A stretch of DNA of 64,000 nt from assembly GCA_024637115.1 (NCBI GenBank), contig JAGXFU010000005.1:126001-190000 (forward strand). The letters are read 5' to 3'. Positions 29,656-44,192 of the stretch are shown one piece after another; within the stretch, counting starts at the first letter, position 1, and each line of letters starts with the position of its first letter. Position numbers and translations under genes: made by a program. Origin of the DNA: Actinomycetes bacterium. Lineage in GTDB: Bacteria; Actinomycetota; Coriobacteriia; Anaerosomatales; JAGXFU01. Below the pieces are notes generated by a model. The model saw only the letters and a program-made list of their open reading frames with translations, was not told the origin of the DNA and did not search any database.

Positions 29656-31095
29656 TTACTCCTCGGCGGTCGCCTTCTCCGCGCACTCACCTGTCCAGTT
29701 CGGCGGCTCATAGGAACAGTACGGCTCGGCTTCGAGGTAGTCACCGGTGATCTCAAGTGCGCGCGCACGACAGCCGCCGCACACCGCCTTGTATTCGCAG
29801 GCCCCACACTTGCCCTTGAGAAGCGAGTAGTCGCGCAGATCGTTGAACACCTTGGATTCGGTCCATATCTGGGAGAACGGTTGCTCTTTGATATTGCCGA
29901 GTTGCATATCGAAGTAGCCGCATGGCTGGATATCGCCCACGTGGCTGATAAAGCAGAAGGTGATGCCGCCCAGACATCCGCGGGTCATAGCATCGAGGCC
30001 GTACTCTTCGCGCGTGACCTTCTTGCCTTCGGCCTTGGCGAGTTGACGAATGATGCGGTAGTAGTGCGGTGAGTCGGTCGGCTTGAAATGCAGCGGGCTC
30101 GTCTTCTGACGGTGGTATGCCCAGGTAAGCACGCGCTCGTACTCTTCGGGCGGAAGCTCCTGCTCGAGAAGGTCAGAGCCGCGGCCGGTCGGAACGAGCA
30201 TGAAGATGTGGAATGCATCAACGCCCAAATCTTCTGCGAGGTCGTGGATCTCCTCGATCTTGTCGGCATTGAGTGTGGTGACTGTCGTATTGATCTGAAC
30301 ACCCACGCCATGACGCTTGGCGATCTTGATGCCCTCGATAGACTGATCGAAGCAGCCCTCCTGACCGCGGAACTTATCGTGCTCCTCGGCAGTCGGGAAA
30401 TCGATCGAGACCGAAATGCGCGGAATCTTGTGCTCGGCCATCTTGGCAGCGATCTCATCCGTGATCATCGTGGCGTTCGTGCCGATTACCGGCATTGCGC
30501 CCTTCTCATGGCAGTAGTCAACGATGTCCCAGATGTCGGGACGCATGAGCGGCTCGCCGCCGGTCAGGATGATGATCGGGTTGGATATGGTGACGATATC
30601 GTCAACGGTCGTCTTGATCTCATCGAGAGAGAGTTCACCGGAGTAGTGACCAAATTCAGCCGCCGCACGACAGTGAGCGCAACTCAGATTGCAGCTGCGG
30701 GTAATCTCCCAGGCGATGATGCGCGGGGCTTTGATGCCGGTGCGCTCCTGGTAGGCAAGCGCAGCCGGGCCTCCGCCGGGACGAAAGCCCATCGATCGTG
30801 CTCCGCCATGCCGTTGCCGCTCCACACCAGCGGGATGACCACCGGGGTGGCCGCCCGGGTGCCCACCGGGGTGGCCGAGAGGCGCGCCAGGATGGCCGGA
30901 GCCCTCCGCTTCCGCAGGCCGAGGGCGCAGGTCATCCTGGCGCGCCTCTCCCAGCGGCATACCGATGGCAGTCTGACCACACCCGGCCTGGGCGTCGGCC
31001 ATTTCCTGCTCATCGATGGTCGGCTTGTTCTCGCCGAACTCCTCGCCCAGCTCAAGATCGGGGCGGGCGTCTGCGTTGCCTACGTTGTCAGCCAT
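29656..31095 (-). CDS. Radical SAM/SPASM protein, AhbC/AhbD/NirJ-like (alternative heme biosynthesis) with a His-Gly-Pro-rich N-terminal extension
   Basis: CNLSCAHC (CxxxCxxC), ILTGGEPLMRPDIWDIVDYCHEKG, C-terminal CGACEYKAVCGGCRARALEITGDYLEAEPYC; neighbours hemB/D/C/A. Confidence 0.75.
   Translation of the reverse strand: MADNVGNADARPDLELGEEFGENKPTIDEQEMADAQAGCGQTAIGMPLGEARQDDLRPRPAEAEGSGHPGAPLGHPGGHPGGHPGGHPAGVERQRHGGARSMGFRPGGGPAALAYQERTGIKAPRIIAWEITRSCNLSCAHCRAAAEFGHYSGELSLDEIKTTVDDIVTISNPIIILTGGEPLMRPDIWDIVDYCHEKGAMPVIGTNATMITDEIAAKMAEHKIPRISVSIDFPTAEEHDKFRGQEGCFDQSIEGIKIAKRHGVGVQINTTVTTLNADKIEEIHDLAEDLGVDAFHIFMLVPTGRGSDLLEQELPPEEYERVLTWAYHRQKTSPLHFKPTDSPHYYRIIRQLAKAEGKKVTREEYGLDAMTRGCLGGITFCFISHVGDIQPCGYFDMQLGNIKEQPFSQIWTESKVFNDLRDYSLLKGKCGACEYKAVCGGCRARALEITGDYLEAEPYCSYEPPNWTGECAEKATAEE
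30826..30897 (-). repeat. (G)GHPG tandem coding repeat
   Basis: Encodes GHPGAPLGHPGGHPGGHPGGHPAG; DNA repeat accggggtggcc at 30841-30852 and 30865-30876. Confidence 0.85.
30877..30950. repeat. 74-nt near-perfect inverted repeat inside the radical SAM CDS
   Basis: gagaggcgcgccaggatg (30877-30894) vs catcctggcgcgcctctc (30933-30950), 18 bp perfect; pairing continues inward to a ~4-nt loop with three mismatches and two G-T pairs. Confidence 0.9.
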
Positions 31096-32543: not shown

Positions 32544-32619
32544 TGGTGGAGATGAGCGGGCTCGAACCGCCGACCTCTGCGTTGCGAACGCAGCGCTCTC
32601 CCAGCTGAGCTACATCCCC
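32544..32619 (-). tRNA. tRNA-Ala, anticodon CGC, CCA encoded
   Basis: Minus strand ggggatgtagctcagctgggagagcgctgcgttcgcaacgcagaggtcggcggttcgagcccgctcatctccacca: full cloverleaf, 7-nt loop ttCGCaa, TTCGAGC T-loop, terminal CCA. Confidence 0.95.
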
Positions 32620-33568: not shown

Positions 33569-34525
33569 TCAGGTCTTGAGCAGGTCGTCAACGTCGTTGG
33601 CTGCGCGCACAGCGGCAAGTACCTTGTCCGCGCCCACCTCAAGAAGGGCAGCCACCATACGGTCGCCGAGTCCGATTGGATCCTCGACGGACCCTTCGAG
33701 CTGGGTACGCAGTACCGTGACGCCATCAACGCTTCCCACGAATCCGTCCATGACCATGCGGTCGCCCTCGACGCGCGCATACGCGCCGATCGGCACCTGG
33801 CACCCACCTTCAAGCTTATTCATGACAACGCGCTCGGCAGTCACACACTCCATGGTCTCGGGATGACCGATCTGCTCCATGACATGACGCATGAATTCGT
33901 CGCTCTCGCGAATCTCGATACCGATCGCGCCCTGTCCGACAGCGGAAACCATCTGCTCGGACGATATGTAGTGCGTGATGCGATCGGCCCAACCCATGCG
34001 GGTGATGCCGGCACTTGCGAGAATGACAGCGTCGAGCTCGCCGTTCTCGGCTTTCTTCATTCGAGTGTCGAGGTTGCCGCGCACATCAACGATCGTGAGG
34101 TCGGGCCGAAGCGCCTTGACCTGGCTGCGACGGCGCAGGCTTGAGGTGCCCAGCTTGGCCCCGTGCGGCAGCGAATCGAGATCGTAGCCTGCGCCACTCA
34201 CGATCGCGTCACGCGGATCAACACGCTCAGGCATTGCGGCAATGAACAGCCCTTCGGGCAGATCGGTGGGGACATCCTTCATGGAGTGCACGCACAGATC
34301 GACGGTGCCCGCCATGAGTTCGACCTCGAGCTCTTTGGTGAACAGACCCTTACCGCCCACCTTGGCAAGTGGCACATCGAGGATCTTGTCTCCGGTCGTC
34401 TTGATGATCTTGAGCTCAACGGGAAGCCCGGTGATCTCCTCGACCTTGCCCTTGATGTACTCGGACTGCCAGAGAGCCAGTTTGCTCCCCCGAGTTCCGA
34501 TTACCAGAGTTGTACGCTCAGACAA
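33569..34525 (-). CDS. hemC: Hydroxymethylbilane synthase (porphobilinogen deaminase)
   Basis: LVIGTRGSKLALWQSEYIKGKVEE, GLFTKELEVELMAGTVDLCVHSMKDVPTDLPEGL, LGTSSLRRRSQ. Probable TTG start at 34525 overlapping the hemA end. Confidence 0.92.
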   Translation of the reverse strand: MSERTTLVIGTRGSKLALWQSEYIKGKVEEITGLPVELKIIKTTGDKILDVPLAKVGGKGLFTKELEVELMAGTVDLCVHSMKDVPTDLPEGLFIAAMPERVDPRDAIVSGAGYDLDSLPHGAKLGTSSLRRRSQVKALRPDLTIVDVRGNLDTRMKKAENGELDAVILASAGITRMGWADRITHYISSEQMVSAVGQGAIGIEIRESDEFMRHVMEQIGHPETMECVTAERVVMNKLEGGCQVPIGAYARVEGDRMVMDGFVGSVDGVTVLRTQLEGSVEDPIGLGDRMVAALLEVGADKVLAAVRAANDVDDLLKT

Positions 34526-35885
34526 CGGTGTCTCCCATCTCAGTCTTAGTATCCGCAGCCTTCTCCTTCTTGCGAAGCAGATGGCGCAGTATTCCGCCAT
34601 GCGGGTTCTTTCCATCAGGATTTGAATCAAGGCCGTACAGATAACGTGCCGCCTCGATGTAGCCGATACCGTATCGCTCGCCGGCCACACCTTTGAGTCG
34701 GTTGGTAGGACCGTGGAGCATCTTGTTCACGATCGACTGCGTGAGCTTCTCGATCGTTTGCAGTTCCTTCTCAGAGAGCCCGCCTAGACGCTTGAGTGCT
34801 CTCTCGAGCTCCTCTTGCCGAATCTGCTCGGACTTGGAACGTATCGCAGCGATCGTTGGAACGACCTCCATGGATTCGAGCCACGCCTCGAACGCTGCCA
34901 TCTCCTCGGAGATGATGGCCTCGGCGCGCTCCGCCTCTCGCATGCGCTCGTCGAGGTTCGCCTCGACCACGCCGCTCAAGTCATCGATGTCATACAGGTA
35001 CGCGTCATCGATCTCGTTGACGCCCGGCTCGATGTCTCGCGGCACCGCGATATCGATGAGAAAGAGCGGGTCGCCTCTGCGACCGCGCATCGCCTTGGCG
35101 ACCGCTTCTTTGGTCACCACATATTCTGTGGCTGCCGTCGAAGAGATCAGGATGTCGGCCTTGCCCAGATATTCGTAGAGTTTCTCGTAAGGAATGGCCG
35201 TGCCCTCGAACTTGGCAGCGAGCTCCTCTGCGCGTGCGAACGTTCTGTTGGCAACGAGCACCTTACACACGCCGTTGCTACAGAGGTGCTTCGCGGTCAG
35301 TTCGCTCATCTTGCCGGCCCCGAGCACAAGCACCGTACGACCTTCGAGCGTCTCAAAAACACGCTTAGCGAGTTCGACCGCGGCGTAGCTGATCGACACG
35401 GCAGACTCGCCGATAGCCGTCTCAGTGCGCACGCGCTTACCCACCTCAAAGCTCTGACGGAACAGTTTGTTGAATACGCGTCCTGTGGACTGGTACTCAA
35501 AGCCCTGCTCGTAGGCCTCTTTCACCTGACCGAGAATCTGCGCCTCGCCAACAACCATCGAGTCGAGGGAAGCAACCACCCGGAACAGGTGTTTGACGAC
35601 CGCATCGCCCTCAACGATGTAGAGGTAGCGAACGAGCTCATGACGATCGAGGTCATGATAGTCAGCGATGAAGTCGATGATTGCGCCGGGGCCGTCAGTG
35701 TCCGCTGCTGTGACCGCATAGATCTCGGTGCGGTTGCAGGTGGACAGAATGATCGCTTCAACCACGTCATCGGTCGACGTAAGGAGCGCGAGAGCGTCCT
35801 CCTGGCGGTTCGCCGGGAAGGTGAGCTTTTCGCGTATCTCAATCGGGGCCGTCTTATGGCTCAACCCGACCAGGGTCAAATGCAT
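34518..35885 (-). CDS. hemA: Glutamyl-tRNA reductase
   Basis: MHLTLVGLSHKTAPIEIREKL, ILSTCNRTEIYAV, GEAQILGQVKEAYE, VLGAGKMSELTAKHL. Confidence 0.95.
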   Translation of the reverse strand: MHLTLVGLSHKTAPIEIREKLTFPANRQEDALALLTSTDDVVEAIILSTCNRTEIYAVTAADTDGPGAIIDFIADYHDLDRHELVRYLYIVEGDAVVKHLFRVVASLDSMVVGEAQILGQVKEAYEQGFEYQSTGRVFNKLFRQSFEVGKRVRTETAIGESAVSISYAAVELAKRVFETLEGRTVLVLGAGKMSELTAKHLCSNGVCKVLVANRTFARAEELAAKFEGTAIPYEKLYEYLGKADILISSTAATEYVVTKEAVAKAMRGRRGDPLFLIDIAVPRDIEPGVNEIDDAYLYDIDDLSGVVEANLDERMREAERAEAIISEEMAAFEAWLESMEVVPTIAAIRSKSEQIRQEELERALKRLGGLSEKELQTIEKLTQSIVNKMLHGPTNRLKGVAGERYGIGYIEAARYLYGLDSNPDGKNPHGGILRHLLRKKEKAADTKTEMGDTVV

Positions 35886-35961: not shown

Positions 35962-36067
35962 AAAAAGGGTCGCCCTCGCCGAGGCGGTGCGTGTTGTTCA
36001 GGCAAGCAGGCCCGGCGAGGGCGAAATAGACGCATCTATGAAACGCACTCCTGCGCCTTGCCTGAAC
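35962..36067 (-). promoter_or_regulatory. Candidate structured leader / attenuator upstream of hemA (interleaved helices + U tract)
   Basis: Helix 1: 36057-36067 with 35996-36006 (11 bp perfect). Helix 2: 36013-36024 with 35970-35981 (12 bp perfect). Hairpin 36026-36039. TTTTT at 35962-35966 on the minus strand. Confidence 0.6.
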
Positions 36068-36103
36068 GGGCTCAGTGTACCATCCGCGCAGGTCGTCAAG
36101 CAA

Positions 36104-36940
36104 TTACGATGCCTGTTTCGCGCGAGCCTTTCGAGCCTTGACGATGTCCGAGTCAACAATGAGAAAGAATACCTCCGGCAGCAGGCCTTTGAGCCGGAAA
36201 TAGAACCTGCTCAGGGCGTCCGGAATGATGTAGTACGTGTTCTTCTCGATGCCCCGAACGATCGCGTCGGCCACCCGCTCGGGTGGGATCGCCTTGATGT
36301 TACCGGCGATGGCATCGGTCTCCGGAGGCCTCAGCGTCTTCTCATACGCCAGTGCCGGCGTATCGGTATCCGGAGGGCAGACCACATGCACGCTCACGCC
36401 GTTCGGCTTCATCTCAAAGCGGAGCGCCTCGGTAAAGCCCATCGTGGCGTATTTCGCCGCCGCATACCCGGTATATCCATAGATGCCGAGGAACCCGGCC
36501 ACGCTTGAGACATTGACGATGTGTCCGCGTCCGGCTGCAAGCATGTGCGGTACTGCGGCTTTGCACGGCCACACCACGCTCAGGAACCCGTGTTCCATGT
36601 TGCGCATGAACTCCTCGGCAGACATGTGCTCGAACTCCCCGGGCACAATCACACCAGCGCTGTTGATAAGGATATCGGGGACGAATTCCTGGTCCACGAT
36701 CCAGTCGATCGCCTGACGCGCCGACTCAAGACGCGACAGGTCCGCGCTCTTTATGAGCACCCGCTGCGAGGAATCCTTGCGCTCGCTCTCAACCTGCACC
36801 CGTGCTCGATCGAGCTTCTCCGGGTCGCGGGCAACCAGGGCGAGGTGGGCGCCGCGACGCGCCAACGCAATAGCGGTCGCCAGCCCGATACCACTGGATC
36901 CACCCGTGACAACGACACGAGCTCCGTCAAACATCATCAA
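36104..36940 (-). CDS. Short-chain dehydrogenase/reductase (3-ketodihydrosphingosine reductase-like)
   Basis: ARVVVTGGSSGIGLATAIALARRGAHLALVARD, LINSAGVIVPGEF, VSSVAGFLGIYGYTGYAAAKYA, PNGVSVHVVCPPDTDTPAL (PPDTDTP, KDSR-like). Confidence 0.8.
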   Translation of the reverse strand: MMMFDGARVVVTGGSSGIGLATAIALARRGAHLALVARDPEKLDRARVQVESERKDSSQRVLIKSADLSRLESARQAIDWIVDQEFVPDILINSAGVIVPGEFEHMSAEEFMRNMEHGFLSVVWPCKAAVPHMLAAGRGHIVNVSSVAGFLGIYGYTGYAAAKYATMGFTEALRFEMKPNGVSVHVVCPPDTDTPALAYEKTLRPPETDAIAGNIKAIPPERVADAIVRGIEKNTYYIIPDALSRFYFRLKGLLPEVFFLIVDSDIVKARKARAKQAS

Positions 36941-43247: not shown

Positions 43248-43931
43248 TTACTGAGTTTCCTCGGCAATCGCCACATCGGTGGCTACAAAGAAACCATCTG
43301 CCTCAAGAGCTCCGGTCACAACTACCTGTGAGCCGGTATCCATGCCTGCGGGGAGTGCTCCGTTCCATGCAATCCCCAGTTCAGCAGTGCCGTCCTCGGT
43401 CTCGATCGCGAAACGCTGGTCGCCACCTGCGGCCACGATGGAATCCGCGACCACAAGACCCTGAACCTTGACCGTGGTGCCCACCATATTCGCGCCTCCG
43501 CCGGAGACACTGTCAACCGAAAGCGCGCCTTTGGCGGTCTCGTATTTGGAGGGACACTTGGTGATCATGTCATCGGACTCGAGGACCCCATCGGAACCAA
43601 CGACACCCTTGACGATGGCAACGACGCCGTCACCAAAGGTCGAGGGCACGCCACCACTATAGCGAACACCGAGAACGGCACCGCCCTCTGTGCCCTCATC
43701 CTGGAGTTCAAATTCCATCGGGCTGGACTCACGATTCCACGATCCGGTCACGACTGCACCACTCACACTGATACGTTCGCCAACAATCTCGTTGTTGTCT
43801 GCGACCTGGGCAACCGTCCGGTTGAGTGCTCCGTCGTCACTACCCGTGGAAACGACAACCGCGAGTACGATGATCACGATGATGGCGGTTACGCCAATGA
43901 GCCTGTTGCGGGCCCGCTTGTTCACCTGCAT
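43248..43931 (-). CDS. ccmE: CcmE-like periplasmic heme chaperone, CxxxY type, with two OB-like domains
   Basis: N-terminal TM anchor; GERISVSGAVV...GVRYSGGVPSTFGDGVVAIVKGVVGSDGVLESDDMITKCPSKYE; then VGTTVKVQGLVV...LGIAWNGALPAGMDTGSQVVVTGALEADGFFVATDV. ATG 43931 with AAGGGAG. Confidence 0.8.
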   Translation of the reverse strand: MQVNKRARNRLIGVTAIIVIIVLAVVVSTGSDDGALNRTVAQVADNNEIVGERISVSGAVVTGSWNRESSPMEFELQDEGTEGGAVLGVRYSGGVPSTFGDGVVAIVKGVVGSDGVLESDDMITKCPSKYETAKGALSVDSVSGGGANMVGTTVKVQGLVVADSIVAAGGDQRFAIETEDGTAELGIAWNGALPAGMDTGSQVVVTGALEADGFFVATDVAIAEETQ

Positions 43932-44192
43932 CCACTCCCTTGCAAACACACGTGTAGTAGGTATTTTTGCGAGTGAGAAAGCAGCGTTGACCGCGAATCG
44001 GCCAGAAACACACGTACCGCTCTTTCACCTGCCTGCCTGAACACTAGGGATATTACCATCCCCGCACGTAGCGCGACAATCATATCGACGCGCTCGCGAG
44101 TGCATTTGAGCAAGAACGATGCCGAAAACGGGCGCTTGTAAATTCAGGCTGTCTGCGTGCATGGAACGTGACCGGATTGCGGGTGATGATTG

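Follow-up and report, generated by a model that had tools for sequence, protein, structure and literature searches.

Cells must match their heme synthesis to demand, and a large demand comes from cytochrome c maturation; we know of no RNA that couples the two processes in Actinomycetota. The locus described here raises the question of whether the leader of a hemA mRNA could do so. It lies in a 64,000-nucleotide stretch of DNA, referred to here as the window, from a genome of 2.3 Mb; names in public records put its order, a poorly known group, in the Coriobacteriia, with entries labeled Anaerosomatales, the former OPB41 lineage (PMC9686372). The initial annotation reported two interleaved helices between the stop codon of a short-chain dehydrogenase gene at 36104 and the hemA start at 35885, a location that we confirm together with the identity of hemA as Pfam GlutR, and interpreted them as an attenuation or ligand-sensing leader controlling hemA-hemC-hemD. 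That interpretation is partly supported: a conserved, covarying and interleaved leader does exist, but a purely local attenuator or riboswitch leaves unexplained the recurrence of its first strand on other mRNAs and the occurrence of hairpins that lack this strand; RNA-RNA pairing across heme and cytochrome c mRNAs accounts for both. We propose, with a probability of roughly 0.6, that the element is a base-pairing RNA module that acts on 5'-terminal mRNA tags and so may couple heme synthesis to cytochrome c maturation.

Structure and conservation of the hemA leader element

Both of the helices reported initially, P1 and P2, are exact in the minus-strand sequence, as is the CAGG/CCTG extension of P1 (Table 1). 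Their interleaving stands, but a third helix, P3 (GUGCGU 36048-36043 with ACGCAC 35992-35987), had been overlooked; the strand order 1a-3a-2a-1b-3b-2b makes the element a triple-interleaved pseudoknot. With P1 and P3 both rising from the top of P2 and an AACAA linker joining their far ends, all three helices could coexist. Folding of the single sequence is modest (z of -2.2 versus shuffled sequence), and the small ATAGA/TCTAT hairpin noted initially is present in the sequence but occupies a variable stretch that is not conserved.

Table 1. Features of the hemA and ccmE leaders, by position in the window
Feature	Position	Strand	Basis
P1a, predicted 5'-terminal tag GTTCAGGCAAG of hemA mRNA; 36067-36057 pairs with 36006-35996 (P1, helix 1, 11 bp)	36057..36067	-	exact helix; P1 covariation in divergent clades
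CAGG, P1 extension; pairs with CCTG 36010-36007	36050..36053	-	sequence
P3a, GTGCGT; pairs with 35992-35987 (ACGCAC)	36043..36048	-	92.6% of cells paired, 3 two-sided pairs, 58 leaders
Small ATAGA/TCTAT hairpin; variable linker, unconserved	36026..36039	-	alignment
P2a, 5' strand of core hairpin; 36024-36013 pairs with 35981-35970 (P2, helix 2, 12 bp)	36013..36024	-	exact helix; covariation
Conserved loop GGCCTGCTTGCCTGAACAACACGCACCGCCT; contains P1b (36006-35996) and P3b (35992-35987)	35982..36012	-	sequence, alignment, duplex energies
P2b, 3' strand of core hairpin	35970..35981	-	exact helix; covariation
hemA, glutamyl-tRNA reductase; first gene downstream of the element	34518..35885	-	Pfam PF05201/PF01488/PF00745 (GlutR)
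Predicted hemA promoter; -35 TTGCTT 36103-36098, extended -10 TGG-TACACT 36082-36074	36074..36103	-	sequence
ccmE; heads the tagged ccm operon	43248..43922	-	Pfam PF03100
Extended -10 TGG-TAATAT of the ccmE promoter	44050..44058	-	sequence; extended -10 in 51/51 relatives
Second tag GTTCAGGCAGGCAGG, implied 5' end of ccmE mRNA; 7 nt after the -10	44028..44042	-	promoter-anchored search
GCGGTAC, block of the ccmE leader resembling P3a; can pair with the 3' part of the loop	44014..44020	-	sequence

HemA was recovered from 59 of 61 genomes of the same order and the DNA upstream was then read: the same element of approximately 105 nt precedes hemA in all but one of these, the exception (G014) retaining the hemA promoter and lacking the element. 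The leader consensus reads GTTCAGGCAA..GCAG..GGTGCGT, a variable stretch, and then CGCCCTCGCCGG GCCTGCTTGCCTGAAC AACAAC GCACC GC.. CCGGCGAGGGCG, in which P3 takes the form GGTGCGT/ACGCACC. Comparison between genomes is what settles the matter: among 58 homologous leaders, 97.7% of cells pair, compared with 35 to 45% in slid registers, with values of 98.7% for P1, 92.6% for P3 and 100% for P2. The covariation expected by the initial annotation was found: two-sided changes occur in P2 and P3 among these leaders and, when divergent relatives are included, at 11/12 P2 pairs and 3/10 P1 pairs, these being raw counts, uncorrected for relatedness, from genomes of which many are incomplete assemblies. 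In the divergent relatives the sequence of P2 is almost freely variable while its pairing is retained, and P1 co-varies in cis, as GTTTAGGC/GCCTAAAC in clades f46 and f98 and as GTCCAGGC/GCCTGGAC at locus L091.

A covariance model built from the element and run against the order, its sister orders and other classes of the phylum recovered it from 65 of the 69 genomes of the window's order, from nine sister-order genomes and from other classes. A second model, restricted to the core and run with lax filters on 31 genomes, found a single strong copy in each, with any further match no better than an E value of 6.6e-4. The portable core is therefore the 12-bp P2 hairpin with its conserved loop of approximately 27 nt, present as a single copy per genome. 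None of the 4,227 families of Rfam 15, tRNAs excepted, matched at the gathering threshold in the window or at the divergent loci, and up to an E value of 10 the best weak match had an E value of 1.6 and 14.5 bits against a threshold of 81; a limited search of open-access papers for a known heme or hemA riboswitch returned nothing relevant. As far as Rfam 15 and this limited search extend, no such RNA has been described earlier.

The suggestion that P2 and the T tract behind it form an intrinsic terminator did not hold as a general reading. A run of at least four U residues directly after the hairpin occurs in the window, in clades f74 and f93 and at L092, but among own-order leaders it is found in 6/58 and missing from the other 52, and termination was rejected as a general function because the tract is not conserved.

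Three features of the surrounding heme cluster were also recorded. A short-chain dehydrogenase gene (36104-36940) sits between sirC and hemA in the window; several genomes of the same order and of f20 likewise have such a gene ending directly before hemA. A tRNA gene (32547-32619, minus strand) lies between the hemD-like and hemB genes. A radical SAM protein gene (29656-31095), with a homologue in L152, follows hemB; its product may be an AhbD-like heme synthase, an identity that, if true, would together with sirC suggest a siroheme-dependent heme route.

The ccmE tag and its complementarity to the hairpin loop

The element begins at the predicted hemA transcription start, the implied +1 being G36067, and the promoter that places it there is well preserved: among 57 relatives, 53 have an extended -10 and 56 have a gap of 6 to 7 nt between the -10 and the tag. 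The P1a sequence recurs where the ccmE operon mRNA is predicted to begin and is consequently more than a local partner of the loop; P1 as a purely local helix was rejected on the ground that the complement of the loop recurs at other mRNAs. A promoter-anchored search for the tag pattern in the window's genome returned two matches, hemA and ccmE, and its reversed control returned none. Within the order, 51 of the 55 ccmE leaders examined carry the tag, with a gap of 6 to 8 nt in all 51. Of the remaining four, two are contig ends, one (G008) proved tagged in the promoter-anchored search, and one (G014) has neither the ccmE tag nor the hairpin. Overall, the tag stands 6 to 8 nt after the -10 in 107 of 108 hemA and ccmE leaders, nearly always behind an extended -10, and this fixed spacing makes the tag the predicted first nucleotides of both mRNAs. 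Two other tagged promoters in the order resemble coding coincidences, and the matches beyond Actinomycetota (Roseivirga, Pseudomonas, Klebsiella, etc.) that a pattern scan of genome contigs returned are regarded as chance.

The loop GGCCTGCTTGCCTGAACAACACGCACCGCCT is complementary to the tags of both hemA and ccmE, that is, to approximately the first 15 bases of its own mRNA and of the cytochrome c assembly operon mRNA. In the window, the ccmE tag and the hemA hairpin loop form 15 uninterrupted pairs (one G.U) with a calculated energy of -28.6 kcal/mol, against a cost of approximately 10.5 kcal/mol for opening the loop. An uninterrupted run of at least 9 bp is present in all 51 genomes that have both parts, and one of at least 14 bp in 37 of them; hemA's own tag never reaches 14 bp because of its bulge, and the ccmE duplex is the stronger of the two in 48/51 genomes (means of -26.1 and -21.3 kcal/mol). 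In G036 and G054, the local hemA tag has been lost and the ccmE tag kept. A GCGGTGC-like block in the ccmE leader extends the match, forming at least six consecutive Watson-Crick pairs with the 3' part of the loop in 36 of 51 leaders, compared with 7% of shuffles. Counting the clades described below, the loop thus has the character of a conserved unpaired sRNA seed complementary to several mRNAs, namely, hemA, ccmE and tlpA-like and ftrD-like transcripts.

Loop and tag also disappear and change together. Four genomes, G014 and three of genus g46, lack both the hairpin and the ccmE tag. Genus g44 has CTTACCTGAAC in the loop and GTTCAGGTA as the ccmE tag, a change from C-G to U-A at sites 7 kb apart for which the U.G intermediate is found in the related genomes G080, G086 and G088; co-variation of seed and target is otherwise seen in cis, in f46, f98 and L091. 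The independent events of co-loss and co-variation are few and are thus supportive but short of conclusive. The tag-less ccmE leaders of genus g46 (L263, L265 and L268) share another start-proximal sequence, TTGTTGACCGAAG.CGTG; when a replacement pair of tag and loop was sought in this genus, no hairpin to match this sequence was found at hemA.

The genome sequences show directly that hairpin and tags exist, are complementary, are conserved, lost and changed together and stand at predicted transcription starts, and we consider it highly probable that loop and tag pair. Two features could have produced part of the pattern by other means: tag and hairpin lie mostly on one strand, 6 to 10 kb apart, in the window's order, where shared operon history could be the cause of their co-retention, and binding of a regulator to the DNA at +1 could keep the tag conserved without any RNA pairing. 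In the fuller form of the latter explanation, a heme- or redox-responsive protein would repress hemA and ccmE by binding the tag as its operator, the loop being a second, reversed operator; the constant spacing between the -10 box and the tag at these two promoters and a few others might suggest as much. We give this little credence, given that the second copy is always found within a covarying RNA hairpin, in its loop, and always oriented for RNA complementarity, that several changes maintain pairing only as G.U, and that the two complementary blocks are swapped in order on the DNA between the ccmE leader and the loop and so do not make one composite operator. It is also very improbable that the hairpin is a protein-binding site, for autogenous control by HemA or a heme-loaded factor, for instance, which the tag would expose or hide: although conservation of the loop in hairpins without a local P1a or P3a would suit such a site, changes in the loop are matched by changes in the tag, as base pairing requires, and nothing protein specific is invariant apart from the tag complement and the GCAC block.

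Layouts of hairpin and tag in other clades

The two parts of the module are arranged differently outside the order. In f46 and f98, tag and hairpin are adjacent and head a single operon running from ccm to hemX-sirC-hemA-hemC; no convincing trans targets tagged with GTTTAGGC were found in f46. In f21, the hairpin follows the last gene of a ccmEFABCD-type operon, i.e., it occupies the ccm 3' end, and the complement of its loop, GTTCAGGCAAC, lies 5.3 kb upstream, immediately behind a -10 box and shortly ahead of ccmE. In f74, the hairpin is found between moaC and mogA, with a tag at the hemA leader 2.3 kb downstream. Whereas the hairpin of the window belongs to the hemA leader, that of f74 and f93 is untagged, with a promoter-like site of its own and a U tract, and in G652 faces away from mogA, an arrangement that resembles a free RNA gene; the tagged mRNAs in these clades are those of hemA, a TlpA/ResA-like thioredoxin gene and an FtrD-like gene.

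These layouts bear on the possibility that the triple-interleaved pseudoknot is a cis-acting hemA riboswitch for heme, a tetrapyrrole precursor or another metabolite. SAM-II and preQ1-II are H-type pseudoknot riboswitches, and the element resembles this class as a leader pseudoknot upstream of a biosynthesis gene, with highly conserved unpaired residues and, in several clades, U tracts after P2; it differs in having three interleaved helices (ABCABC), no Rfam match and a first strand that recurs on other mRNAs. A riboswitch would be expected to keep a complete conserved aptamer inside the regulated leader. In f20, f21, f74 and f93, however, the hairpin has no tag or P3a nearby and its loop is conserved all the same, and hairpins are also found within a 3' UTR or separate from hemA while the complement serves as a tag at other mRNA starts. 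None of this is explained by a cis aptamer, and we regard a riboswitch of this kind as unlikely.

Transcription attenuation, in which P2 would be, or derive from, an intrinsic terminator and tag-loop pairing would decide termination, can draw on the U tracts described above and on the tagged hemA, ftrD-like and tlpA-like leaders of f74 and f93 (L239, L240, L156, L155, L157 and L241), most of which show, by eye, a terminator-like hairpin directly after the tag. It seems improbable as the general mechanism in view of the 52 own-order leaders with no U run and of the own-order ccmE leaders, for which a search for a conserved fold found no consensus. In L240 and L156, the loops of the terminator-like hairpins resemble a decayed form of the conserved loop that still pairs weakly with its own tag.

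Two further tags are recorded as leads only. In four f2/f15 genomes, the tag stands at +1 before a conserved operon (L244-L247) encoding a protein beginning MSDQDFFF, a TPR protein, an anti-anti-sigma factor, TatA and TatC; the TPR protein is CcmH/CycH-like, below Pfam's cut-off, and the operon is a plausible further target. In five f13 genomes (L248-L251 and L254), a sequence resembling the tag, GTTCAGGCA, lies where ahcY (S-adenosylhomocysteinase) is predicted to start and forms approximately 10 bp with the loop, which is an uncertain case and possibly a coincidence.

Possible modes of action and biological meaning

We suggest that the single P2 hairpin of each genome would present its loop of approximately 27 nt to the 5'-terminal tags of heme and cytochrome c maturation mRNAs. 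In the window, the loop would hold either the 5' end of its own hemA mRNA, through P1 and P3, or that of the ccmE operon mRNA, through up to 15 pairs and the GCGGTAC block; the two pairings are mutually exclusive, and in this way the leader could tie hemA transcript levels to those of ccm. Our inference is that hairpin and tagged mRNA encounter each other in the cell, and that the lifetime of this mRNA changes because pairing covers its 5' end. That the effect is exerted at this end is possible, at somewhat less than even odds. The tag is at +1 and the ccmE start codon lies approximately 100 nt further on, so that direct cover of the ribosome-binding site is unlikely in the window's order and protection or exposure of the 5' end is likelier. 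The partners need not be separate molecules: ccmE and hemA are on one strand, a read-through transcript could carry both, and distant cis and trans pairing are thus indistinguishable in the window's order, whereas in f74 and f93 the targets are on other contigs and trans action is favored.

A split, two-molecule switch was also considered, in which P1 and P3 would clamp loop and tag together as a three-helix junction, whether inside a single leader or from one mRNA to another, and possibly only with a ligand such as heme. It is an unlikely variant, but, if true, it would represent a riboswitch-like device assembled across mRNAs that matches heme supply to cytochrome c maturation.

RyhB, an iron-stress sRNA of Gammaproteobacteria, is similar to the proposed pairing module in that an RNA acts on cytochrome functions. 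It controls cytochrome expression in Shewanella (PMC5826389). The precedent for a changed mRNA lifetime is FasX of Streptococcus, which pairs with the extreme 5' end of ska mRNA, blocks exoribonucleases and stabilizes the message (PMC12675982; PMC4691137). Pairing with the extreme 5' end of a target is the shared feature, predicted here from the sequence; FasX is a dedicated 205-nt sRNA from another phylum, whereas here one leader hairpin matches several tagged mRNAs, its own included. In Staphylococcus aureus, pairing between the 5' and 3' UTRs of icaR mRNA covers the Shine-Dalgarno site and feeds RNase III (PMC3868564). Long-range pairing of both ends of one mRNA is what the f21 ccm operon layout implies, but, in contrast to the Shine-Dalgarno site covered in icaR, the tag lies at +1, and in the window's order some 100 nt separate it from the start codon.

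The genomes thus suggest that an mRNA leader doubles as a base-pairing regulator of another operon. Its common 5'-terminal tag makes targets easy to predict, and the two halves are found fused, split over a 5-kb operon or as a putative free RNA gene with tagged targets, so that a change between cis and trans RNA regulation may be open to study by comparative genomics.
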